Assembly (NCBI GenBank): GCA_004357475.1 | Contig: SMWE01000076.1 | Span: forward strand, 1 to 38,500 | Direction of reading: 5' to 3' | DNA length: 38,500 bases | From: Gammaproteobacteria bacterium | GTDB lineage: Bacteria; Pseudomonadota; Gammaproteobacteria; Steroidobacterales; Woeseiaceae | Shown here: piece by piece, positions 17,450 to 29,306 of the stretch | Layout of the letters: every line of letters starts with the position of its first letter | Numbering within the stretch: the first letter of the stretch is position 1 | Translations under genes and position numbers: made by a program | Notes under the pieces: model-generated | The model's input: only the letters and a program-made list of their open reading frames with translations | What the model was told of the DNA's origin: nothing | Databases searched by the model: none

Positions 17450-18094
17450 CTATTCCCGCGGCAGCAGGAATCCCGTCCCAAAATATTCAAGAATGACACC
17501 GTCAGGCGTTATCTCCCTGACAACGGGGCCTTCATCGAGAATGCCTCTCTCTTTATATTTGCTCATGTTGACGAAGATGAATCGGTCCTCGGGTACGCTG
17601 CTGTAGACGTGGATGTCGAGATGCAAGTCCGGGAGTTGCAACAGACCTTGCACCCTCAGATCGTTGAACGTGGCATAGGATTCGATGAGCAGCGGCGATT
17701 CGTAGCTGGCAACCGCAGGCACAGGTGCAGCGTGCTGACTCGCAACGGTGACTGCCGGTGAAACATGATCTGTTGCCGTGCCCGCCGCCGGGAGCTGGAT
17801 GCGCTCTGTTTCAGCCAGGAATTGCGGCAAGCCGGCCGCACTCGCCGATTCTGATGGTAATACTGATACCGGCTCTGCGGCCGGACTGGAGGCGACCGGA
17901 TCCTGAACCCGATCTGGTGTCATGAACATCACGACGAGTACGATCAGGTTGATGCCGATCAGTACGACGGCGATCCAGATCCAGTGAGACGCAGACTTCT
18001 CTCGTGCACTGTCAGGTACATTTGAGAATCCGGGCGCATCCTTCCTCAGCCGCTCGGCTTCCGATTTCTTCAAGGCATCTAGTATGAAGGACAT
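17450..18094 (-). CDS. gspB: General secretion pathway protein GspB
   Basis: 214 residues. The start MSFILDALKKSEAERLRK is the classic cytoplasmic tail of GspB/ExeB. It is followed by one transmembrane helix (about 40-58, HWIWIAVVLIGINLIVLVVM), a Pro/Ala-rich periplasmic linker and a C-terminal domain (about 130-214) ending near VILEYFGTGFLLPRE. With GspA it forms the inner-membrane complex that helps the type II secretin pass the peptidoglycan in Aeromonas and Vibrio. gspA is 29 nt upstream on the same strand. The main gsp operon is not in the window. Confidence 0.9.
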   Translation of the reverse strand: MSFILDALKKSEAERLRKDAPGFSNVPDSAREKSASHWIWIAVVLIGINLIVLVVMFMTPDRVQDPVASSPAAEPVSVLPSESASAAGLPQFLAETERIQLPAAGTATDHVSPAVTVASQHAAPVPAVASYESPLLIESYATFNDLRVQGLLQLPDLHLDIHVYSSVPEDRFIFVNMSKYKERGILDEGPVVREITPDGVILEYFGTGFLLPRE

Positions 18095-18123
18095 AAACTC
18101 GTTCCGTCAGGTGAATAGCGTAA

Positions 18124-19752
18124 CTATCGAGTAGCTGACAACCTGGGCGTGCCATCCACCGCCAGCAGCGAATTGATGATGATCTGAGTCTTTTGTCCGG
18201 CGAGTCCATCGGCTTCCAGGCGATGCTGGCGCTGAAATGCGATAAGTTGTTGCTGGAGACCGTCATCAAAAAAATCCGATTCTGCAGTTTGCGGCTGATA
18301 GTTATCGTCGAGTTTGACGAGGCTTTGCCTCAGCCAACGCACGTTTTCATTTTGCATGCCCGGTGAAATCGCCATAGGCGTGCCACCCGGCGGCCGCCAG
18401 ATCAGCAGGAATTGCCCGAACCAGAGATCCGCAACCTCGTCGAGCGGAAAAGTCATCCGTTTGCCACCAAACGAGAGCTCGGCGACATTGTCATCCAGAC
18501 TGACAAGAACCGGCTGGTGGGTTGCGCCCTGGCTATCCGTCAGTGTCAGCACTACAGGCCGGTCAAGTTGTCGGATTCCGTTCCACGAGCCGCGCTGGAA
18601 ATAACAACTGAAACCCTGGGCACTGGCCTGTGCGCAGGCAGGTCCGGCCGCAGCGCTGTAATCGATTCCCCAGAGCGACAGCAGTGTCATAAGGCCTGAA
18701 TCGGACCCTGGATTTGAACTGAATTCCGCGAGCCGCACCTCGAGACCGGGCTGTTCATCGAGCGACTCCGGCGGCGAGTCCTCAATGGTGGCAGATGCGT
18801 CTGCTACCGGCGCCGTTGCTAATGGCACCGAATCCACGGCATCCGGGTCTCTTTCAAGCATGGCCCAGATGGCGGCGCCAAGCACCATGAGTCCAATCAC
18901 GCTGATGACCGGCACGACGAATTTCATGAACACCGGCGGCAGTGGCTGCCCGGATACCTCGGATGCCGCACGCCGTACGAGGCGCTTGTTGACCGTTCGT
19001 GATTCGCGGCTGTACGCACCCAGCAGCGCGCGATCACAGATGACATTCATAACCCGCGGCACGCCGCCCGACAATCGATACACTTCGCGCCTGGCCCGCC
19101 TATCGAAAATTTCGGTCAGTGCCCCGGCAACCCTCAAGCGGTGATGTATGTACTTGTCTGCCTCATCCCGCGAAAGGGGTTCGAGGTGATAACGGCCTGT
19201 TACGCGCTGCGCAAGTTGACGCATATTGTTCTGCGACAACTTCTCCCGCAGTTCCGGTTGCGCAATCAGGATGATCTGCAGCAATTTTTGTTTTGCGGTT
19301 TCGAGATTGGTCAGCAGACGCAATTGTTCGAGAACGTCCTCAGCGAGATTCTGCGCTTCATCGATCAGCAGTATTGTCCGCCGCCCGCGCGCATGGGCGT
19401 CCAGCAGGTGATGATTCAATGCATCAACCAGTGCCTTGGCGCTGCCCTTTTCCTGGGGCAGCGCTATATTGAGTTCCTCGCAAATCGCTGTGAGGAATTC
19501 GATTGCCGTCAACTGCGGATTAAGAATCAGCGCAATATCGACTTCAGCGGGAATTTGTCCGAGCAAGGCGCGGACAAGTGTTGTCTTGCCGGTTCCGACC
19601 TCGCCGGTCAGCTGGATGAAACCACCGCTTTCGGTGACGCCATATACAAGGTGTGCGAGCCCCTCGCCATGCCGCTCGCTCATGAACAGATAACGTGGAT
19701 CAGGCGTTATCGTGAACGGCTTTTCGTTGAGGCCAAAAAAGCTTGTATACAT
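18124..19752 (-). CDS. gspA: General secretion pathway ATPase GspA (ExeA)
   Basis: 542 residues starting MYTSFFGLNEKPFTITPDPRY, the family signature. The AAA ATPase domain has Walker A GEVGTGKTT (50-58), Walker B ILLIDEAQN and an arginine-rich sensor region. A single transmembrane helix follows near 275-295 (VVPVISVIGLMVLGAAIWAM). The periplasmic part has a C39-peptidase-like region around 350-450 and a C-terminal peptidoglycan-binding domain (FFDDGLQQQLIAFQRQHRLEADG). Together with GspB it is expected to use ATP to insert or assemble the type II secretin through the cell wall. It lies 48 nt downstream of dinB. Confidence 0.92.
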   Translation of the reverse strand: MYTSFFGLNEKPFTITPDPRYLFMSERHGEGLAHLVYGVTESGGFIQLTGEVGTGKTTLVRALLGQIPAEVDIALILNPQLTAIEFLTAICEELNIALPQEKGSAKALVDALNHHLLDAHARGRRTILLIDEAQNLAEDVLEQLRLLTNLETAKQKLLQIILIAQPELREKLSQNNMRQLAQRVTGRYHLEPLSRDEADKYIHHRLRVAGALTEIFDRRARREVYRLSGGVPRVMNVICDRALLGAYSRESRTVNKRLVRRAASEVSGQPLPPVFMKFVVPVISVIGLMVLGAAIWAMLERDPDAVDSVPLATAPVADASATIEDSPPESLDEQPGLEVRLAEFSSNPGSDSGLMTLLSLWGIDYSAAAGPACAQASAQGFSCYFQRGSWNGIRQLDRPVVLTLTDSQGATHQPVLVSLDDNVAELSFGGKRMTFPLDEVADLWFGQFLLIWRPPGGTPMAISPGMQNENVRWLRQSLVKLDDNYQPQTAESDFFDDGLQQQLIAFQRQHRLEADGLAGQKTQIIINSLLAVDGTPRLSATR

Positions 19753-19800: not shown

Positions 19801-20979
19801 CTACCTGATTTGATCGTTGTCCAGCGTCCGTGCGCGCCCGACGGACAACTTGCCGAAGCGGGTGCGAATCGCATCAACCGTTTGGTCCAGTGGCGTTCCA
19901 CCGGCGGCAAGCTCGGGCGCAAACAGGTCCGGTTGTGCATCAGCGGCCAGATCGCTGCCGCCCACGCCCAGCAGGCGAACGCGCACTCCCGGATGTTCGA
20001 GTAGCCAGTCGGCGAGCAGGCCTTTTGCAACTCCATACAACTGGTCCGTACCGTTGCCAGGCGGGTGCAGTGCTCGCTGTCGCGTAAAGGTCGAAAAATC
20101 CGACTGGCGAATTTTCACTTGTACCGTACCGGCAACCAGTGCTCTGGCGCGCAGCCGGCTTGCGGTTTTCTCACTCAAGCCTAATAGTTGGCGGTTCATT
20201 GCCGTTACCTCGGACAGGTCTGTATCGAATGTCTCTTCGGCGCTGATCGATTTGTCGGCCCTGGAAGAAACCACTGGCCGGTCGTCGATACCGGAAGCCC
20301 GGTCCCGTGTGCGCTGCGTGAATTTTCCGAATATGGGTTCGAGATCACGATCCGGTGCCAGCCGCAGATCGGCAATTGTCTCGATACCGACGCGCTTCAA
20401 CCTGGCCAGCGTTTCACGGCCGATGCCCGGGATCACGCGGGCCGGCAGGGGATCCAGAACCTCATGAACATTTTCCTGTGTCACGACACACAGACCATCG
20501 GGCTTATCGAGATCAGACGCGATCTTCGCGACAAGCTTGTTCGGTGCAACACCGACAGATGCGGTAAGTGCGGTTTGCGCCCGGATTCGGTGCTTTATTT
20601 CCGTCGCAATGCCGACCTCGTCGCCAAACAATGACAAGCTTAAGCTTACGTCCAGGAATGCCTCGTCCAGCGACAGCCCTTCGACGAGTGGTGTGAACTC
20701 ACGAAAAATCGTGAAGATGTCCTTCGACACTGATTGGTAGTGCGACATCTGCGGCGCCACCCTGAGCAGATCGGGGCAGCGGCGATAAGCGTCCCGCATC
20801 GGCATCGCCGAGCGGATGCCGAACCTGCGTGCCTCGTAGCTCGCAGCGGCAACCACGCCGCGATTGCTGCTGCCGCCGACGACAAGCGGTTTGCCGCGTA
20901 AGAAAGGATCGTCGCGCTGCTCGACCGACGCATAAAACGCATCCATGTCTACGTGTAGAATTTTTCGCGATTTTGTCAA
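19801..20979 (-). CDS. dinB: DNA polymerase IV (Y family)
   Basis: 392 residues beginning MTKSRKILHVDMDAFYASVEQ. The start codon is TTG at 20977-20979, overlapping the ispA TGA as TTGA; this spacing and the normal family N-terminus support it. Catalytic acidic residues are in HVDMDAFYASVE and SLDEAFLDVS; the steric-gate aromatic lies in DAFYASVE. A beta-clamp-binding motif QPDLF is visible near 352, followed by about 38 further residues. Pol IV copies past damaged template bases without proofreading. Its translational coupling to ispA is a local peculiarity. Confidence 0.93.
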   Translation of the reverse strand: MTKSRKILHVDMDAFYASVEQRDDPFLRGKPLVVGGSSNRGVVAAASYEARRFGIRSAMPMRDAYRRCPDLLRVAPQMSHYQSVSKDIFTIFREFTPLVEGLSLDEAFLDVSLSLSLFGDEVGIATEIKHRIRAQTALTASVGVAPNKLVAKIASDLDKPDGLCVVTQENVHEVLDPLPARVIPGIGRETLARLKRVGIETIADLRLAPDRDLEPIFGKFTQRTRDRASGIDDRPVVSSRADKSISAEETFDTDLSEVTAMNRQLLGLSEKTASRLRARALVAGTVQVKIRQSDFSTFTRQRALHPPGNGTDQLYGVAKGLLADWLLEHPGVRVRLLGVGGSDLAADAQPDLFAPELAAGGTPLDQTVDAIRTRFGKLSVGRARTLDNDQIR

Positions 20980-21908
20980 GACACGCGCTCGACAATGTAC
21001 GCTGCGAGTACATTCAAGGGCTCGGCGTCGCCGCCAAATATGGATAATTGTGCGGTGCCCGATCTCAGCAGTTCGTCACAACGGCGCCGAGCTTCTTCAA
21101 GTCCGAATAGTCCTGGCCAGGTTGCTTTGGACAATTTTTGATCTGCTCCTGCACGTTTACCGAGCACCGCGGTTTCCCCGGCGACGTCCAGGATGTCGTC
21201 GCGAATCTGAAACGCGAGCCCGATATCGCATGAAAACCTATCGAGGGCCGTCAATTTTTCCGGCGACAATTCATTCGCAAGGCAACTCGCAGAAATAACA
21301 CAGGCGCGGATCAATGCCCCGGTCTTGAGGTAATGCATCTCGGCCAGTTCCTTCGCCGAAAGCGTTTGCCCCTCGGATGCAAGATCAATCGACTGCCCAC
21401 CCGTCATGCCGAGCGAACCACAGGCTGCAGATACTCTTTGGATGATCGCGGTTTTCTCACTGTCGTCTAGTGCGGCTGCAGATGCAATGACCTGGAACGC
21501 GAGCGGCTGCAGCGCATCGGCAGCCAGTATGGCGATGGCCTCGTCAAATTGCCGGTGCACCGTGGGTTTGCCGCGCCGCAGATCGTCGTCGTCCATCGCC
21601 GGCAAATCGTCATGTACGAGCGAAAAAGCATGAATGAGTTCGATTGCCGTGGCCGGCGCATCCAGTTTTTCCGGATCGACGCCTAAGCATTCGCCGGTTG
21701 CATAAACAAGGAGCGGCCGCACGCGTTTGCCGCCGCTCAGGACCGCGTATCGCATCGCCTCATGAAGCTGGCGCGGTGTCTCGTCCTGCGCCGGCAATGC
21801 CCGGTCAAGGCAGCCAACCACACGTTCCAGATAGGCTGCCGCTTTGTCAGCGAGTAAAGTGGCTGTTGCCGGTATCTCATGGGCCTGGGACATTCGTCTA
21901 GCGTACAC
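20976..21908 (-). CDS. ispA: Polyprenyl synthetase, farnesyl diphosphate synthase type
   Basis: 310 residues from GTG 21908, which has AGGAG 9 nt upstream; ATG 21893 (MSQAHEIP) is a less well-placed alternative. The first aspartate-rich motif is DDLPAMDDDDLRRG and the second is RDDILDVAG; LSGGKRVRP and ELIHAFSLVHDD are also present. Family: condenses IPP with DMAPP and geranyl diphosphate to C15 farnesyl diphosphate. Chain length is inferred from overall similarity to bacterial IspA. It is divergent from the mevalonate operon, whose products are its substrates, so the two form one isoprenoid block. Its TGA overlaps the dinB start by 3 bases. Confidence 0.92.
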   Translation of the reverse strand: MYARRMSQAHEIPATATLLADKAAAYLERVVGCLDRALPAQDETPRQLHEAMRYAVLSGGKRVRPLLVYATGECLGVDPEKLDAPATAIELIHAFSLVHDDLPAMDDDDLRRGKPTVHRQFDEAIAILAADALQPLAFQVIASAAALDDSEKTAIIQRVSAACGSLGMTGGQSIDLASEGQTLSAKELAEMHYLKTGALIRACVISASCLANELSPEKLTALDRFSCDIGLAFQIRDDILDVAGETAVLGKRAGADQKLSKATWPGLFGLEEARRRCDELLRSGTAQLSIFGGDAEPLNVLAAYIVERVS

Positions 21909-22103: not shown

Positions 22104-22159
22104 CGACTTGTACTCCCTGTAAAACATCTTTGTTTAACAAGGCTCCGGACAAAAATAAA

Positions 22160-23122
22160 ATGCGGGCAGATGCTCAGGCACAACCGAATATCGCGCTGAT
22201 CAAGTACTGGGGCAAACGTGATATCGAACAAAACCTGCCAGCGGCCGGCTCGCTGTCCGTCACCCTTGATTCCCTGTGGACGAAAATGTCGGTCGAGTTT
22301 TCGGATGCCCTGCCTGGTGATGAACTCGTGGTCAATGCGGCTGCCAATGATGAAATGTTGCCACGGATCAGTGCTTGTCTCGACCGCGTTGCCGGGACCG
22401 ACCGTCCTCGTGCATTGATAAACAGTGAAGGCAATTTCCCGATAGCGGCCGGCCTCGCCTCATCCGCATCCGCGTTCGCCGCGTTGGTTGTTGCAGCCAG
22501 CAAGGCGGCGGAACAAAACAGCGATACTTTGTCGCTGGCAAGAATTGCCGGCTCGATATCGGGGTCGTCAGCTCGATCCCTGTTCGGCGGCTTCGTTGAA
22601 TTGCAGACAAATGACACGAACATCGATGTTGAGACAATCGCGGAAGCAGGCGTCTGGCCGCTGACTGTTGTCATTGCGGTTACCGCAGAAGGCGCGAAGC
22701 CGGTCAGTTCCGGTGAGGCGATGATTCGCAGTGCCGCAAGCTCTCCTTTTTATTCGAGTTGGCTCGAGCAACAGCCGGCCGACCTGGTGTCGGCAAGGGA
22801 TGCAGTCCTGCGCACGGACTTTGCACAACTCGCAGCGGTATCAGAGCACAATTGTCTGAAAATGCACTCTGTTATGTGGGCATCCCGTCCACCCATTGTC
22901 TACTGGAACAGTGCGACCTTGTCGTGCATGGAGGCAGTTCGCCATCTGCAGGACGAAGGGCATGCAGTATTCTTCACGATAGACGCCGGCCCTCAATTGA
23001 AAGCAATTTGTCTGCCGGACGAAGCCGACCTGGTCCGATCTGCTCTCGATGCGTGTGCCGGAGTAGTACGCACGATGGTGAGCGGTCTCGGCGCGGGCGC
23101 AAGACTGCTGGACAGCAAGTGA
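22160..23122 (+). CDS. mvaD: Diphosphomevalonate decarboxylase
   Basis: 320 residues from ATG 22160 (MRADAQAQPNIALIKYWGKR); an in-frame TTG at 22130 would add ten residues unlike the family. Hallmarks are PNIALIKYWGKRD at the N-terminus, the GHMP-type loop AAGLASSASAFAAL, and GSSARSLFGGFVEL. The enzyme uses ATP to convert mevalonate 5-diphosphate to isopentenyl diphosphate, CO2, ADP and phosphate in the cytoplasm, the last step in making IPP. It is first in the operon. Its TGA (23120-23122) overlaps the GTG start of the next gene as GTGA, a typical coupling arrangement. Confidence 0.95.
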   Translation: MRADAQAQPNIALIKYWGKRDIEQNLPAAGSLSVTLDSLWTKMSVEFSDALPGDELVVNAAANDEMLPRISACLDRVAGTDRPRALINSEGNFPIAAGLASSASAFAALVVAASKAAEQNSDTLSLARIAGSISGSSARSLFGGFVELQTNDTNIDVETIAEAGVWPLTVVIAVTAEGAKPVSSGEAMIRSAASSPFYSSWLEQQPADLVSARDAVLRTDFAQLAAVSEHNCLKMHSVMWASRPPIVYWNSATLSCMEAVRHLQDEGHAVFFTIDAGPQLKAICLPDEADLVRSALDACAGVVRTMVSGLGAGARLLDSK

Positions 23123-24132
23123 TAACGGCTACTGCGCCTGGTAAAGCGGTGTTGTCCGGCGAGTATGCCGTACTGCAAAATGCTACTGCGATCGCCACCG
23201 CAATCGATCGCCGTGTTCGTGTAACGGTTTCGGAGTCGCCTGGTGAATACCATTCCATCACCGCGCCGGGCTACCTGGAGGGAAACTGGCATTTCCGCGT
23301 GAGTGGGGAGGGAAAATTCGCATGGCAGGACCGATTACCCGGGCCATCAGCATTCTCCCTCGTGGAAGAAGTGTGGAGATCATTTGATACCGCGCAATGG
23401 CCATCGATATCACTGGTGGTCGACACGCAGGTATTTATCGACGCAGCGACCGGCCTGAAACTTGGCTTGGGCTCTAGCGCTGCAGTTTCTGTGGCACTCA
23501 CAGCAGCGTTGCAAAGCTTTCGTTCAGCCGATCGCGATACTGGAAAAACCGCCATGGATGCACACGAGCGATTCCAGGGCGGCCGGGGCAGCGGCGTCGA
23601 TGTCGCGACGAGTTTACAGGGGGGCGTAATCGCATATCGCCGCGCCGGAGCCGACTCTCGCCAGCTTGGCTGGCCGGCGGGACTCCATTATCGATTTCTG
23701 TGGAGCGGGCAGTCCAGCGTTACCGCAGAAAAACTGGCGAAGCTGGACAAACGCCGCGAACAGCGCGCAGCAAGTGACAGTATGAAACTGCTCAGTAAGA
23801 CTGCGGAGCAGGTTGCCGCTGCCTGGTCGTCCGGCGACAGCAGGCAGATCCTGAAAGCATTTCCTGGCTACATCGATGCGCTTCGACAATTCAGTATTGA
23901 CCGTGATCTCGGTGTGTTCGATGCTGGGCATGAGGGCCTGGTTCATCTAGCGAGTGGCAACGGCATTGTGTATAAACCTTGCGGCGCCGGTGGTGGCGAT
24001 ATTGGCATCGTGCTCGCTGCAAGCGAGGCTGCCGTAAGCGAGTTTTGCGGGGAGGCGCATCAGCAGGGTTTCAGAAATCTCGATATTGCACTGGAAGTTG
24101 AGGGCGTCCTCATCACGGAGCGAAGACATTGA
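23119..24132 (+). CDS. GHMP kinase, probable phosphomevalonate kinase
   Basis: 337 residues from GTG 23119 (reading V-I-T-A-T-A-P-G-K-A). The frame is open further upstream, but that part only shadows mvaD. The N-terminal APGKAVLSGEYAVL is GHMP motif 1, GLGSSAAVSVAL is the ATP-binding motif 2, GSGVDVATS carries the likely catalytic Asp, and CGAGGGDIGI is motif 3. Position between mvaD and HMGR-mevalonate kinase, plus the ATAPGKAVLSGEY start, indicates phosphomevalonate kinase: mevalonate 5-phosphate plus ATP to the 5-diphosphate. Substrate is assigned from context, since mevalonate kinase and decarboxylase are accounted for. Both ends use 4-nt overlaps (GTGA upstream, TTGA downstream). Confidence 0.88.
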   Translation: MITATAPGKAVLSGEYAVLQNATAIATAIDRRVRVTVSESPGEYHSITAPGYLEGNWHFRVSGEGKFAWQDRLPGPSAFSLVEEVWRSFDTAQWPSISLVVDTQVFIDAATGLKLGLGSSAAVSVALTAALQSFRSADRDTGKTAMDAHERFQGGRGSGVDVATSLQGGVIAYRRAGADSRQLGWPAGLHYRFLWSGQSSVTAEKLAKLDKRREQRAASDSMKLLSKTAEQVAAAWSSGDSRQILKAFPGYIDALRQFSIDRDLGVFDAGHEGLVHLASGNGIVYKPCGAGGGDIGIVLAASEAAVSEFCGEAHQQGFRNLDIALEVEGVLITERRH

Positions 24133-26471
24133 GTGATTCGCGATTTGCCGACTTCTATCGCTTGAGCCACGCTGACCGCGTCAGGGTGCTGGCGGAGCGT
24201 GGCATGATATCGCCGGATGATGCCGAGGCGTTGCTGAGTGACCATTGTCTGTTGCCGGTGGATGCGGCCGACAAGATGATTGAAAACGTCATCGGTGTAT
24301 TCGGACTGCCACTTGCCATTGCACCGAACTTCTTGGTCAATAACAAAGACTACATCGTACCAATGGTGGTCGAGGAACCGTCGGTCGTCGCTGGCGTCAG
24401 CGGCGCCGCAAAACTGATCAGGGAAGCCGGTGGCTTTCATGTCAGGTCGACCCAGCCTGTACTGATCGGCCAGATTCAGCTTATCGATGTTGAGGAGCCT
24501 GATGCCCTTATTCAAACATTGCGTGGTTCGCAGGAGGAATTACTCGGCCTGGCGAACGAGTTGCAGCCCGGATTACAGGCGCGTGGCGGCGGCGCAAAGG
24601 GCATCGAGTATCGAAAGTTACAGCTGCCGGACGGCCGCTGGACCGTTGTGCTGCACGTCCTGGTCGATACGCGTGACGCAATGGGCGCCAACGCTGTCAA
24701 TACAATATGTGAAGGTATCGCCCCGCACCTGGAAAGAATATGCGGCGGCACTGTTGGCCTCAAAATTATCTCGAATCTCACCGATCGCTCGCTCGTTTCG
24801 GCGAAGGTGAAAATTTCACCGGCAGTGCTCGGGCACGGAGAATTTACGGGCGAGCAGGTTCGTGACAGCATTGTGCTGGCAAACGATTTTGCCAACATCG
24901 ACCCGTATCGTGCCGCGACTCACAACAAGGGCATCATGAACGGCATCGACGCAGTTGCCCTGGCAACCGGCAATGATTGGAGATCTCTGGAGGCTGGCGC
25001 ACACGCGTTTGCTGCACGGGATGGCGCATACCGGGCGCTGACAAGCTGGGTAGCAGATGCAGACGGCGACTTGCTCGGCGAACTGACGTTGCCTGTCAAG
25101 ATCGGCGTCGTCGGCGGCTCGCAGGCATTGAATCCGTCGGCGGCAACAGGCCTGAGAATAACAGGGGCAAAATCGGCACAGGAACTTGCCGAACTGATGG
25201 GTGCGGTCGGGCTTGCACAGAACTTTGCAGCGCTTCGCGTACTGGTTACCGATGGCATCCAGAAAAGTCACATGAGCCTGCACGCCCGCAGCGTTGCAGC
25301 ATCAGCCGGCGCGCCGGACGAGATTTTCGATCAGGTAGTCTCAGCTATGGTCAGCAGTGGTGACGTGAAGTCATGGAAGGCGGAAGAGCTGGTCAAGAGC
25401 TTGCAGACGTCTGATGGCGACACGGTAAAGATCCCGATATTGAAGACGTCCGGGAGCCTGCCACCTGGATCGGTTGTCGCGCCCGTTGAGGCTGCCGCGG
25501 AAAACGTTCCGGCGGTGCAGAAGCCTGACGGCGTGGCGGCAGGCAAGGTTATCCTGCTTGGTGAACATGCCGCCGTTTACGACCGGCATGTACTGGCACT
25601 GCCGCTCGAATCTGCAGTGAGCGTCCGCATTGCCGACACCGCATCGGGTATTCGGCTCTTGATCCCGGACTGGAACATTGAACAGCAACTCGATCCCGAT
25701 GCTCCGGTAAGAGGCGGCCATGCTGCAGTGTTGTCCCTGATCAGGCGATATTTCGGCGTAACAGAGCGTGGCTTCGATATTCATGTGCGGTCACGCATTC
25801 CGCTAGGGGCGGGCCTCGGATTTTCCGCAGCGCTCGCGGTGGCGACCATTCGTGCGTTCGACAAAATTGCCGGAAAAGGCATGAGCAACGTGGAGGTCGA
25901 GAAGCTGGCGTTCCAATGTGAAAAAATATCGCACGGAACGCCGTCCGGAATTGACAACAACATCGCGACTTTCGGCCAGCCCGTACTCTTCAGCAAGGGT
26001 ACCGGCTCCAGGACAAAGCCGGTCACGCTGACCGAGGTACCGCCACTCGTGATCGCATCAAGCGGAATCAGGGCAAATACAATAGAACAAGTGGCAGGCG
26101 TGCGCGCGCGATTCGACAAGAATCGTGAGCTCTACACCACCATCTTTGATGAAATCGGTGAAATCAGCATTGCCGGCGCGGTTGCGCTCAGGAATTGTGA
26201 TTACGAACAGCTCGGATCGTTGATGAATGTTTGCCAGGGCTTCCTGAACGCGATCGAGGTTTCCACGCCGGAACTCGAGACGATGATTGCAATCGCGAGG
26301 CAAAACGGCGCGATCGGTGCGAAACTGACAGGAGCAGGTGGTGGCGGATCGATCGTCGCACTGTGCCCGGACAAGGTCAGCGAGGTAACGCGGGCGCTGG
26401 ACGCGGCCGGATACCAGCTTGTACCAATGGAAAATCGCCAGGAGTCTTGTGGAAGCGCGGACGGTAAATAG
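24129..26471 (+). CDS. Bifunctional fusion: class II HMG-CoA reductase - mevalonate kinase
   Basis: 780 residues from TTG 24129, overlapping the previous stop as TTGA. Residues 1-425 are a class II HMG-CoA reductase: ENVIGVFGLP, VEEPSVVAG (Glu83), TRDAMGAN, GGTVGLKI, THNKGIMNG (Lys267), ATGNDWRS (Asp283) and SHMSLHAR (His381). These positions equal the catalytic numbering of the Pseudomonas mevalonii enzyme as I recall it, which supports the TTG start. An Ala/Pro/Val linker (about 426-471) joins a mevalonate kinase: GKVILLGEHAAVY (Lys473), PLGAGLGFSAALA, GTPSGIDNN (Asp609) and GAKLTGAGGGGS. The fusion carries out consecutive steps, HMG-CoA to mevalonate, then to mevalonate 5-phosphate. One oddity is Phe for the first Ser of GLGSSAA. 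Confidence 0.93.
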   Translation: MSDSRFADFYRLSHADRVRVLAERGMISPDDAEALLSDHCLLPVDAADKMIENVIGVFGLPLAIAPNFLVNNKDYIVPMVVEEPSVVAGVSGAAKLIREAGGFHVRSTQPVLIGQIQLIDVEEPDALIQTLRGSQEELLGLANELQPGLQARGGGAKGIEYRKLQLPDGRWTVVLHVLVDTRDAMGANAVNTICEGIAPHLERICGGTVGLKIISNLTDRSLVSAKVKISPAVLGHGEFTGEQVRDSIVLANDFANIDPYRAATHNKGIMNGIDAVALATGNDWRSLEAGAHAFAARDGAYRALTSWVADADGDLLGELTLPVKIGVVGGSQALNPSAATGLRITGAKSAQELAELMGAVGLAQNFAALRVLVTDGIQKSHMSLHARSVAASAGAPDEIFDQVVSAMVSSGDVKSWKAEELVKSLQTSDGDTVKIPILKTSGSLPPGSVVAPVEAAAENVPAVQKPDGVAAGKVILLGEHAAVYDRHVLALPLESAVSVRIADTASGIRLLIPDWNIEQQLDPDAPVRGGHAAVLSLIRRYFGVTERGFDIHVRSRIPLGAGLGFSAALAVATIRAFDKIAGKGMSNVEVEKLAFQCEKISHGTPSGIDNNIATFGQPVLFSKGTGSRTKPVTLTEVPPLVIASSGIRANTIEQVAGVRARFDKNRELYTTIFDEIGEISIAGAVALRNCDYEQLGSLMNVCQGFLNAIEVSTPELETMIAIARQNGAIGAKLTGAGGGGSIVALCPDKVSEVTRALDAAGYQLVPMENRQESCGSADGK

Positions 26472-26472
26472 C

Positions 26473-27024
26473 GTGTCATCCAGGAGCGAGTTGCTCATCC
26501 TTGTCGATACTGACGATCAGGAAATGGGGAATCTCAGCAAAGTCGAGTGTCACGACGGTGATGGCATATTGCATCGGGCGTTCTCGGTATTCCTGTTCAA
26601 CGACCAAGGAGAATTGTTACTACAACAGCGCAGCGCGGACAAACGTCTGTGGCCAATGTACTGGACGAATACCTGTTGCAGCCACCCGCGCCAGGATGAA
26701 TCGATGCAACTCGCGACAGAGCGGCGCCTGCAGCAGGAACTGGATACCGCTTCGGCGCTCGAGTTTATTTACAAATTCGCATACCAGGCAAGGTTCGGTG
26801 ATCTGGGCTCGGAAAATGAACTCTGCTCGGTCTATCTTGGCCGGCTTGAACGGGAAGCGACCGCAAACGACACGGAAATCGCCGCGTTACGCTATGCCGG
26901 TGTCAAGACATTGCAGGCGGAGATACAGTCGAACCCTGACAACTACACGCCGTGGTTCAAAATGGAGTGGCAACGCCTGAACGAAGAATTCCCGGATCGC
27001 CTATCCAAATACACTATGGTGTAA
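26473..27024 (+). CDS. idi: Isopentenyl-diphosphate delta-isomerase, type 1
   Basis: 183 residues from GTG 26473, 1 nt after the TAG of the fusion gene; ATG 26419 would overlap that gene by 53 nt and add 18 unlikely residues. With the GTG start, the SENELCSVY glutamates fall at 114 and 116, the same numbers as in E. coli Idi. The catalytic Cys is Cys69 in TNTCCSHP. The fold is Nudix-related, with the helix ATERRLQQEL. The enzyme interconverts IPP and DMAPP, needed because the mevalonate route makes only IPP. It closes the mevalonate operon. Confidence 0.93.
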   Translation: MSSRSELLILVDTDDQEMGNLSKVECHDGDGILHRAFSVFLFNDQGELLLQQRSADKRLWPMYWTNTCCSHPRQDESMQLATERRLQQELDTASALEFIYKFAYQARFGDLGSENELCSVYLGRLEREATANDTEIAALRYAGVKTLQAEIQSNPDNYTPWFKMEWQRLNEEFPDRLSKYTMV

Positions 27025-27054
27025 GGCGGAAGGCGACTCGAAGCGGAGGGTGTG

Positions 27055-27504
27055 ATGAATACCGATCGTCTCAATCGCTGGTTGACTCTTGGAGCTAATC
27101 TCGGCGTCCTGATTGGAATTGTTTTGTTGGTCATCGAAGTCAGGCAAAACAATGCGAACCTGGTCGCGCAGGCGCGCGCTACCTTCTATGCAGGGACCTC
27201 GGACGTGTGGGGCATGGTAGCGGAACAGCCCAGCCTGGCCGAAGTTCTTGCCAAGGAACTGAGCGGTGAAGAATTGACCACGGCGGAATTCGTTCAATTA
27301 TCTGCATACTTCACGAAAGTTTTGCTGTCCCATCAGTGGAGCTATCTCGAGTTACCTGAAGGAGAGTCTGCCGGTAATCTGTATTACCTGATAGGAAACT
27401 TTGAAGATTTTCCGACGCTCCGCTGGGTCTGGAAGAATCGCCAGTCGTTTTTCAAATCCGAATTCGTTGAGTACATGAACGAGAACATCGTTGACAAGAA
27501 ATGA
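27055..27504 (+). CDS. Small membrane-anchored protein of unknown function
   Basis: 149 residues; ATG 27055 has an excellent GGAGG 5 nt upstream (a GTG at 27052 is too close to it). One hydrophobic segment near 10-27 (LTLGANLGVLIGIVLLVIEV) is followed by RQNNANLVAQARATFY and a soluble region rich in aromatic residues (HQWSYLELPEG, RWVWKNRQSFF). I do not recognise a named family, though proteins with this RQNN-after-one-helix layout are frequent in marine gammaproteobacteria (recollection). It is 30 nt downstream of idi and may be read with the mevalonate operon, but nothing in its sequence links it to isoprenoids. Confidence 0.75.
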   Translation: MNTDRLNRWLTLGANLGVLIGIVLLVIEVRQNNANLVAQARATFYAGTSDVWGMVAEQPSLAEVLAKELSGEELTTAEFVQLSAYFTKVLLSHQWSYLELPEGESAGNLYYLIGNFEDFPTLRWVWKNRQSFFKSEFVEYMNENIVDKK

Positions 27505-27554
27505 CATGCACCATGTGATGGCTGTCCTCAATTTTGGATTGCTCGTCCCATAAA

Positions 27555-27578
27555 CAATCGCCCCCCAGCGGGCGATTG
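27555..27578. repeat. Perfect 9-bp palindrome, REP-like, possible terminator
   Basis: CAATCGCCC (27555-27563), six-base loop CCCAGC, GGGCGATTG (27570-27578). It shares the GCGGGCGATT core with the other REP units and sits between the convergent 27055-27504 gene and HMG-CoA synthase, followed by the T-containing TATTCTT. It could terminate transcription from the operon. Confidence 0.6.
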
Positions 27579-27703
27579 TATTCTTCGGGTGGTCCGTAAC
27601 GGCAAGTCAAACGCAGGTTGTAACCTGCTAATCAATGGTTATAACGGAAGTTCTAGCTTACGCTCAAACCGGTTGGAGTCCGCTCGCGCTGCGTGAGTTG
27701 TTT

Positions 27704-29176
27704 TCAGCTCACGTATCGATAGTATTCGATACCCAGATCCTGGAAATGGCGCTGATCGATGCGGCCGACTTTTTCGATGATGAATTCATCTTTCGGCAGA
27801 TAGGCGAGACCGGTAACACGCCGGCCGTCGTGCAGGGCTGCGTATTGTTTTTCGCTCAGGTCCACCGCGAATTCCATGGAGTCCGCCAGGCGGATCCTGG
27901 CGGTCGCCTCTCGCCAGTCATCCGCGACCACCAGCGGGATGACTTCGGCTGCGTCGCCGCTGCCATAGCCAAGTGTCAGCAATTCTTCACCAGTCAAATC
28001 GCGGTTCTCATCTACTGCCTGTTCAAATCCTGCCGCCATCCATGCGGGTAGTGCGGCGGTGTACAGGTTGCCGAGGTCGAGCATCGTGTCGCTGCCAAGC
28101 GCGAGTTTGTCGAGAATCTCACGACGATATTTTCGTGCCGCGCGGAAGATGCGGAAGACAGCCATGGTTAGCGGGTAGGCTTCGAAGTTGTGGCGTTCAG
28201 GATGGGCGAGGTCGGCTACTTCCGGCTTGCTCATCATCTCCTTGAGCAATTCCTCAGGCTCGACGCCCGCCTGGTAGCAATAAGAAGCAAGCTCGGCACG
28301 ATCGTCGGGAGTACCGCTAGGCAATGCAAACAGGTAGGCGATCGCATAGCCGGTTTCCGGCATCCTGCGATAGGGCCTGTGCATGAATATGGTTTGCAGG
28401 GTTTTCAGATACTCGCTCGCATTCAGCCCGCGCTTTTCATACATGTCATTCAAGGCATGCAAGGTCTCATCGATGTAGCAGGTGGTCGAGTACTTGCCGT
28501 TGAAGATCGGGAAGTCCTGTACCTGGTGACTTTCACTGCGGTCCTGACCGCAGAATCGCATCATCGGCTTGCGAAAGTCGATAATGCGGTAATCGGAAGC
28601 TGATCCAGATTTGGTCAGATCAACTGCCACGAGTTTTGGCTCTTCTTCCAGCAACATTGCAATCGCACCGGCACCCTGCGTCGGTTCACCGCTGCTGCCG
28701 CGCGCGTACTCCGCGATGTCGGCGCAAACGACAATTGCCTGGCTACCCGCGCCATCGAGCGCGAGATGACGCAATGCGCCTTTCATGCCGTATACACCGC
28801 CCAGGCAGGCATGCTTGAATTCCGGAACCTCGCAACTCCTGGCGATCGGCGAGGAGCCCTGCATTTCGAGCGCGCGGTCCACCATGCCCTTGACGATGAT
28901 TGCGCCGGCGGAATTATCCGTGCTGGACTCAGTACCCAGGCCAAGAAACTTGATACGCGCCGGGTCGATTTCATACTGCCTGATCAGGCGCATGACGGCC
29001 GTGGCGGCCATCGTATAAATGCTTTGATTGGGCCCGCGTACGCGAAAGCTGCGCCCCACAACCTCCCGTACCTTCGGCCACTGGTTACCGGTCCACTGAC
29101 ACCAGTCCTCCAGCCATACCCGATATGGCGGCACATAGGCGGCTAGCCCGCTTATTCCTATGCTTTTTCTATCCAT
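27704..29176 (-). CDS. Hydroxymethylglutaryl-CoA synthase
   Basis: 490 residues from ATG 29176 (MDRKSIGISGLAAYVPPYRV) with a weak AGG 6 nt upstream; GTG 29221 is possible but its AAAGG is too close. The catalytic triad is visible: Glu83 in GTESSTDNS, Cys124 in KHACLGGVYG and His266 in FMHRPYRRMPETG. It condenses acetyl-CoA with acetoacetyl-CoA to HMG-CoA, the entry step of the mevalonate pathway. At 490 residues it is longer than the roughly 390-residue enzymes of Gram-positive cocci. It is convergent with the operon rather than part of it, so must have its own promoter. No acetoacetyl-CoA thiolase gene lies in the window. Confidence 0.92.
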   Translation of the reverse strand: MDRKSIGISGLAAYVPPYRVWLEDWCQWTGNQWPKVREVVGRSFRVRGPNQSIYTMAATAVMRLIRQYEIDPARIKFLGLGTESSTDNSAGAIIVKGMVDRALEMQGSSPIARSCEVPEFKHACLGGVYGMKGALRHLALDGAGSQAIVVCADIAEYARGSSGEPTQGAGAIAMLLEEEPKLVAVDLTKSGSASDYRIIDFRKPMMRFCGQDRSESHQVQDFPIFNGKYSTTCYIDETLHALNDMYEKRGLNASEYLKTLQTIFMHRPYRRMPETGYAIAYLFALPSGTPDDRAELASYCYQAGVEPEELLKEMMSKPEVADLAHPERHNFEAYPLTMAVFRIFRAARKYRREILDKLALGSDTMLDLGNLYTAALPAWMAAGFEQAVDENRDLTGEELLTLGYGSGDAAEVIPLVVADDWREATARIRLADSMEFAVDLSEKQYAALHDGRRVTGLAYLPKDEFIIEKVGRIDQRHFQDLGIEYYRYVS

Positions 29177-29306
29177 GGATTGCCTGTCTAAACGTTCCTG
29201 TTTGCGGCCTGTAAAAGGCACAGCCTTTGAATTCTAGTTGTCCGGGCCCTTGCACTCAAGGCCGGCGGCTGGCCGACCACGCCCGTCCCTGTCATTGAGA
29301 CCGCAG

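Follow-up and report, generated by a model that had tools for sequence, protein, structure and literature searches.

The window, a stretch of 38,500 nt (positions 1 to 38,500, forward strand, of contig SMWE01000076.1, assembly GCA_004357475.1) from a gammaproteobacterium of the Woeseiaceae, contained at nt 24129–26471 a single intact gene of 780 codons. This gene encoded a complete class II HMG-CoA reductase (HMGR) followed by a complete mevalonate kinase (MVK), with a linker between them. Its parts, with the evidence for each, were as follows.

24129–26471, + strand: HMGR-MVK fusion gene, 780 aa, TTG start (open reading frame list, translation, NCBIfam)
24129–25409, + strand: class II HMG-CoA reductase half, residues 1–427 (Pfam, NCBIfam, AlphaFold2, Foldseek)
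25416–25517, + strand: disordered linker, residues 430–463 (predicted local distance difference test, pLDDT, < 50)
25527–26438, + strand: mevalonate kinase half, residues about 467–770 (Pfam, NCBIfam, AlphaFold2, Foldseek)

Residues 16–386 matched PF00368 (334.4 bits, cut-off 27, Pfam) and residues 2–386 matched TIGR00532 (378.6 bits, cut-off 259.95, NCBIfam), whereas residues 470–745 matched TIGR00549 (245.4 bits, cut-off 163.05, NCBIfam); by these curated scores the two halves belonged to the class II HMGRs and to the MVKs of the GHMP superfamily, respectively. In the AlphaFold2 model, built with 40 fusion sequences, mean pLDDT was 86.2 and both halves were ordered, the HMGR half being closed by three C-terminal helices (residues 377–392, 400–410 and 415–427). 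The predicted TM-score (pTM) of the whole fusion was 0.58, and the relative placement of the halves was therefore not confidently predicted. Foldseek returned Pseudomonas mevalonii HMGR as the best solved relative of the HMGR half (48% identity) and MVK structures for the kinase half, including those of Leishmania (28%) and Methanosarcina (34–35%). With both domains above their NCBIfam cut-offs and ordered in the model, the original prediction that one protein carries two consecutive enzymes of the mevalonate pathway was borne out. No thiolase domain was found in the protein by the Pfam family scan, which places it outside the MvaE-type thiolase-HMGR fusions.

The fusion was conserved across a large group of bacteria from the environment, mostly Gammaproteobacteria. 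Strong matches were obtained in 46 of 60 relatives (window genome included), and in all 46 both halves lay in a single open frame, although contig ends truncated the fusion in five (G006, G009, G010, G028 and G054); the other 14 relatives had no match (5) or weak matches alone (9). In a sample of 274 genomes of the class, 22 matched at E ≤ 1e-40. Fifteen did so with the HMGR half alone, six were fused (G000, G021, G098, G176, G228 and G291), and G238 matched query residues 365–765 within a 390-residue frame. In a sample of 396 genomes of the order, 198 matched a longer fusion query at E ≤ 1e-60; among the matches listed (down to E of about 4e-211), the HMGR-MVK junction was spanned in every row and 14 rows contained stops. 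A contig scan gave at least 589 stretches, the best 80 of which were taken as a sample of named loci: 40 were fused, 10 had separate adjacent genes, and 30 were without an MVK found nearby. By title, 26 of the fused loci came from Pseudomonadota, four each from Calditrichota and Cryobacterium (including three named Cryobacterium strains), three from Acidobacteriota and one each from Planctomycetota, Nakamurella and an unnamed bacterium; titles derived from metagenome-assembled genomes (MAGs) may be wrong. Among 72,556 plasmid records, 50 matched and none covered 80% of the query.

The motifs flanking the junction were 53 residues apart in the window; both were found in 57 of 60 fused loci, where 20–53 residues (with a median of 30) lay between them, so that the roughly 45 residues first proposed for the linker was a fair estimate; in L057, outside this count, the linker was about 80 residues long. 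The nearest relative, L003, was 92% identical in both halves. Such a linker could mean that the single gene yields two working proteins, through internal initiation before MVK or cleavage in an exposed linker, and its predicted disorder and variable length are in keeping with this. Between the window and L003, the ratio of nonsynonymous to synonymous substitutions (dN/dS) was 0.12 in the HMGR half (285 codons), 0.18 in the MVK half and 1.3 in the linker (53 codons), the last value again favouring two proteins; in four other pairs, however, the linker gave 0.03 to 0.43 (three pairs were not computable). Many of the dS values exceeded 1 and were saturated. Start codons of any kind within the 20 codons before MVK were scarcer than in control stretches of the same genes (34 of 59 loci, 58%, versus 80% of 2950 stretches), as was ATG (13 of 59 versus 44%), and a start with a Shine-Dalgarno-like site occurred at chance level (4 of 59, 7%, versus 7%). 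An internal start before MVK was thus unsupported against the controls, and together with the retention of one frame in 46 of 46 relatives this makes two separate proteins improbable.

One polypeptide could still carry a half that is catalytically dead or regulatory, such as a kinase domain merely sensing mevalonate or products. This was examined in two alignments, A2 (40 fusions, L061 being left out at a contig end) and A1 (14 fusions). HMGR residues Glu83, Lys267, Asp283 and His381, which we take to be catalytic from the roles known for P. mevalonii HMGR and which occupy the same positions in that numbering, were unchanged in 40 of 40 and 14 of 14 fusions. The same was true of MVK residues Lys473, Ser566, Glu598 and Asp609, presumably the catalytic Lys, the Mg-binding Ser and Glu and the catalytic Asp (Lys13, Ser146, Glu193 and Asp204 of rat and human MVK). 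The GLGxSAA loop of the window MVK did carry Phe565, the sole Phe among the 40 aligned rows, but this position was variable (G in 26, A in 8, S in 5, F in 1) while the adjoining Ser566 and the other tested catalytic positions were invariant. Moreover, each of 44 genomes had one MVK above the TIGR00549 cut-off, in every case the fusion (G010 and G054 were cut by contig ends), and the genes for phosphomevalonate kinase (PMK) and diphosphomevalonate decarboxylase (MVD), enzymes that need its product, were mostly conserved alongside. Both halves therefore appear catalytically competent, and a dead or purely regulatory half is very unlikely.

The original prediction also held that the reductase is close to the degradative enzyme of P. 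mevalonii, which works in that direction, and needs the pull of the kinase. This was not supported. PMC13370337 distinguishes in class II HMGRs an NADH-type cofactor helix, Dx(V/L)xxxL, an NADPH type, (H/Y)xSxxxR, and a third, 'undefined' kind marked by Arg in position 7, for which its authors hypothesised use of both cofactors. The window helix, QPGLQAR, was not of the NADH type. Among fused HMGRs, Arg152 (position 7) was present in 58 of 58 and Asp146 (position 1) in none of 58, position 146 being His in 47, Gln in 10 (the window among them) and Asn in 1; Ser at helix position 3 was likewise found in none of the 58. By sequence, then, the fused helix was nearest to the 'undefined' kind. Arg152 was also found in 10 of 10 unfused HMGRs beside an MVK gene, whereas of the 30 HMGRs without an MVK found nearby, 20 had Asp146 and 6 had Arg152. 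The constancy of Arg152 and the lack of Asp146 therefore predict use of NADPH or of both cofactors and no degradative role.

The HMGR tree pointed the same way. It comprised 98 rows, computed by a quick method with a midpoint root; L003 and L019 were excluded because their HMGR was partial, and L001 because it is the copy from the window itself. All 58 fused rows lay on one side of a branch with a Shimodaira-Hasegawa-like approximate likelihood ratio test (SH-aLRT) support of 100, forming a clade under the midpoint root, and the stand-alone HMGRs of Pseudomonas and Variovorax lay across a fully supported branch from them. The window fell in a set of 15 rows (support 99) with its family f1 and three MAGs titled Woeseiaceae, a position that puts the organism probably within or close to that family. 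Several origins of the fusion were not required by this tree.

The surrounding genes were those of isoprenoid synthesis, as follows.

22160–23122, + strand: diphosphomevalonate decarboxylase (MVD), TIGR01240, 246.4 bits (cut-off 171.35); start set at the in-frame ATG, the listed reading frame beginning at 22130 (TTG)
23119–24132, + strand: phosphomevalonate kinase (PMK), TIGR01220, 98.3 bits (below the cut-off of 165.7)
26473–27024, + strand: isopentenyl-diphosphate delta-isomerase type 1 (IDI), possible GTG start 1 base past the fusion stop
27704–29221, − strand: HMG-CoA synthase, divergent in sequence, 505 aa, TIGR01835, 160.9 bits (cut-off 360.35); convergent to the operon
20976–21908, − strand: farnesyl diphosphate synthase, NF045485, 335.8 bits (cut-off 275); divergent to the operon

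MVD, PMK, the fusion and IDI formed a tight operon, in which the GTG start of PMK overlapped the MVD stop (GTGA) and the TTG start of the fusion overlapped the PMK stop (TTGA). With HMG-CoA synthase alongside on the other strand, HMG-CoA synthase, HMGR, MVK, PMK, MVD and IDI all lay within nt 22160–29221, as in a biosynthetic mevalonate operon. The synthase had the HAC-GG stretch that aligns in a solved HMG-CoA synthase, with a Cys that is presumably catalytic; its identity to close relatives was mostly 74–81% (97% for L003, 65% for L017). Among the 38 fused named loci with sufficient upstream sequence, MVD and PMK were both upstream in 31 by script; L049, L056 and L062 failed the scripted distance rule although the gene map shows both, and L035, L036, L040 and L044 lacked MVD, PMK or both. 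IDI was downstream in 27 of 38. Within the fetched DNA of the 40 fused loci, HMG-CoA synthase was found in 14 and farnesyl diphosphate synthase in 9.

The methylerythritol phosphate (MEP) pathway, probed in the relatives through Dxr alone (TIGR00243), was detected above the cut-off in 10 of 60, namely in none of the 46 with the fusion and in 10 of the 14 others; G004 had a sub-cut-off match (18.6 bits). Neither fusion nor Dxr was found in G012, G029, G035 and G042, all except G012 being less than 90% complete. In G012 itself (94% complete) no fusion, Dxr or MVK match was found, and sequence may be missing.

A reductase half running from mevalonate to HMG-CoA as in P. mevalonii, with the kinase competing for or salvaging mevalonate, has in its favour that P. 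mevalonii HMGR is the best solved relative and that TIGR00532 bears the name 'degradative', a name that would mislead annotation of the fused reductase. Nevertheless, Asp146 was missing from the fused helices, the Pseudomonas and Variovorax HMGRs were separated from the fused rows by a fully supported branch despite the 48% identity to the P. mevalonii enzyme, and PMK, MVD, IDI and HMG-CoA synthase accompanied the fusion. In addition, Dxr was not found in the relatives that have the fusion, and no HMG-CoA lyase was found by Pfam among the 29 window proteins, the rest of the genome not having been searched for one. On cofactor helix, HMGR tree and operon the degradative role was rejected, only a slight probability being left to it.

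An origin of the fusion in misassembly or a frameshift error, for which the fragmented, 76% complete assembly of the window genome might speak, has a negligible probability and was refuted by independent relatives, isolates and the order sample, the same architecture occurring in the single-contig genome G017 and the Cryobacterium isolates L055, L056 and L062, and the linker hiding no stop or frameshift, L003 keeping the same 53 residues in frame as do all 46 relatives their two halves.

The fusion is thus very probably a bifunctional enzyme of isoprenoid biosynthesis, with probably a single origin and use of NADPH or both cofactors; we infer its activities, cofactor, direction and mode of origin from sequence. 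Its N-terminal half would reduce HMG-CoA to mevalonate, its C-terminal half would phosphorylate mevalonate with ATP, and the product would pass to the PMK and MVD encoded in the same operon. The most likely benefit would be a fixed 1:1 supply of the two activities, plus a proximity that keeps free mevalonate low.

Several observations weigh against this reading. QPGLQAR of the window is without the H/Y and the S of the strict NADPH motif, and both PMK and HMG-CoA synthase scored below their family cut-offs. The HMGR tree was a quick, midpoint-rooted one without bootstrap. In the MVK tree (68 rows, sequences with fewer than 200 aligned MVK residues excluded) the fused rows were again on one side of a branch, but with a support of just 36 and long-branch warnings, so that a shared history of the two halves is likely but unproven. 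The contrast in Dxr between relatives with and without the fusion gave a Fisher p of 1.3e-8, which overstates the evidence because the genomes are related. Of the 32 fused genomes examined elsewhere, seven had Dxr, namely four Cryobacterium, two Acidobacteriota and G098; strict exclusion between fusion and MEP pathway, true in the 60 relatives, is broken there and hence no general claim is made. In G023 and G033, part of an additional MVK-like protein lay at the start of a contig. Finally, of the 46 fusion genomes, 33 had no PF00368 protein other than the fusion, whereas 13, the window genome among them, had a second HMGR, and the fusion therefore need not be the sole reductase in these.

The one second HMGR that was typed, in L104:453–12027 (G000:C117), was class I-like (TIGR00533, 309.8 bits, below the cut-off of 441.8); the same gene row held a PPDK_N/PEP-utiliser protein, an MMPL protein with a sterol-sensing domain match, a DUF3419 protein and an AMP-dependent ligase. 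L105:3703–4914 of G012 encoded an HMGR 66% identical to the second, class I-like HMGR of the window genome. In Cryobacterium (L055, L056, L057 and L062), the fused mevalonate operon together with Dxr may represent a laterally acquired second isoprenoid pathway.

As to origin, the fusion probably arose once, by the joining of neighbouring genes of a mevalonate operon. Unfused adjacent hmgr-mvk genes were found in Bacillaceae and Myxococcota. In two Myxococcaceae MAGs (L058:3467–5752 and L059:7885–10215) hmgr and mvk were in the same frame with one stop codon between them; such pairs indicate that fusion needs little change, although ancestry is not thereby shown.

A longer version was found in one genus of family f8, in both genomes of that family in the sample (G056 and G043), where PMK was in frame with HMGR-MVK and no stop preceded HMGR.

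L011:355–3753 (G056:C6), + strand: PMK-HMGR-MVK frame, 1,133 codons
L010:1489–5241 (G043:C107), − strand: PMK-HMGR-MVK frame, open frame without stop

The two genes shared 96% protein and 88% DNA identity. In the 1,133-codon frame NCBIfam placed PMK at residues 5–368 (156.9 bits, just below the cut-off of 165.7), HMGR at 378–767 and MVK at 834–1107. The product is probably a trifunctional enzyme, predicted to carry the steps from HMG-CoA to diphosphomevalonate on one chain. No further clear three-enzyme case was present among the matches listed for the 396 order genomes; some frames there exceeded 1,000 codons with the match starting at HMGR, and G022 aligned along almost the whole query with two stops.

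In P. mevalonii HMGR each catalytic cycle includes a closing movement of the C-terminal helices over the active site. In the fusion the linker begins directly after the three helices that end the HMGR half, His381 lying in the first of them. The kinase is therefore probably attached to a movable part of the reductase; it would hang on a flexible tether behind the very part that bears this catalytic residue. Discontinuous density for the three-helix C-terminal domain of Borrelia HMGR is described in PMC13370337. The variation of the linker in length and sequence favours a plain flexible tether over a fixed tunnel. Direct handing of mevalonate from reductase to kinase on the same chain is possible. 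We suggest, tentatively and as a doubtful extension, that the fusion is a working module in which kinase occupancy is coupled to reductase turnover and mevalonate is retained, in a lineage that also includes the probable trifunctional PMK-HMGR-MVK.

Control of the mevalonate pathway usually lies at HMGR, and engineered cells lose free mevalonate by leakage. A natural chain that would both make and phosphorylate mevalonate offers a direct test of the effect of tethering on flux as well as ready parts for engineering. Its single frame is preserved throughout a large set of bacteria, it is present in cultured Cryobacterium, and it marks a mostly gammaproteobacterial group that seems to have replaced the MEP pathway by the mevalonate pathway.

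Elsewhere in the window, nt 17450–19752 (− strand) encoded an AAA ATPase that matched peptidoglycan-binding and GspA C39-like domains, adjoining a T2SSB protein; the two resembled a GspA/GspB-like pair, and the nearest NCBIfam model was an XrtA/PEP-CTERM ATPase, below its cut-off.

A description of an HMGR-MVK fusion was not found in the open-access literature (titles and beginnings of abstracts, with most subscription journals outside the coverage), nor in passages of PMC13001223, PMC12292504, PMC4092121, PMC9231021 and PMC13370337, protein-database annotations not having been searched. This agrees with the original prediction, to which no characterised reductase-kinase fusion was known. The architecture is thus undescribed in the open-access text searched, whereas fusions of pathway enzymes, including those of HMGR such as MvaE, are already known.

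Compared with known systems, the HMGR half resembles the class II HMGR of P. mevalonii (1QAX, 9DCP) in fold, catalytic residues and 47–48% identity over the full chain; that enzyme, however, is stand-alone with an Asp146-type helix, whereas the fusion is joined to a kinase, has Gln146 and Arg152 and lies in a biosynthetic operon. The Streptococcus pneumoniae class II HMGR (5WPJ), solved with NADPH bound, shares the fold and 42–44% identity, but its structure entry contains HMGR alone, without a kinase. The C-terminal half shares the GHMP fold and 34–35% identity with the MVK of Methanosarcina mazei (6MDE), which is stand-alone and is reported in PMC9231021 to be free of feedback inhibition. 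Adjacent hmgr-mvk pairs of Bacillaceae and Myxococcota (10 loci) have the same HMGR-then-MVK order and Arg152 in 10 of 10, but use two reading frames or have an intervening stop; their MVD gene, and any PMK gene seen, lies downstream of the pair, in contrast to most fused loci, in which both genes are upstream. MvaE of enterococci, an acetoacetyl-CoA thiolase-HMGR fusion, likewise joins HMGR to another enzyme of the same pathway, but with a different partner, at the opposite end and for a non-consecutive step.

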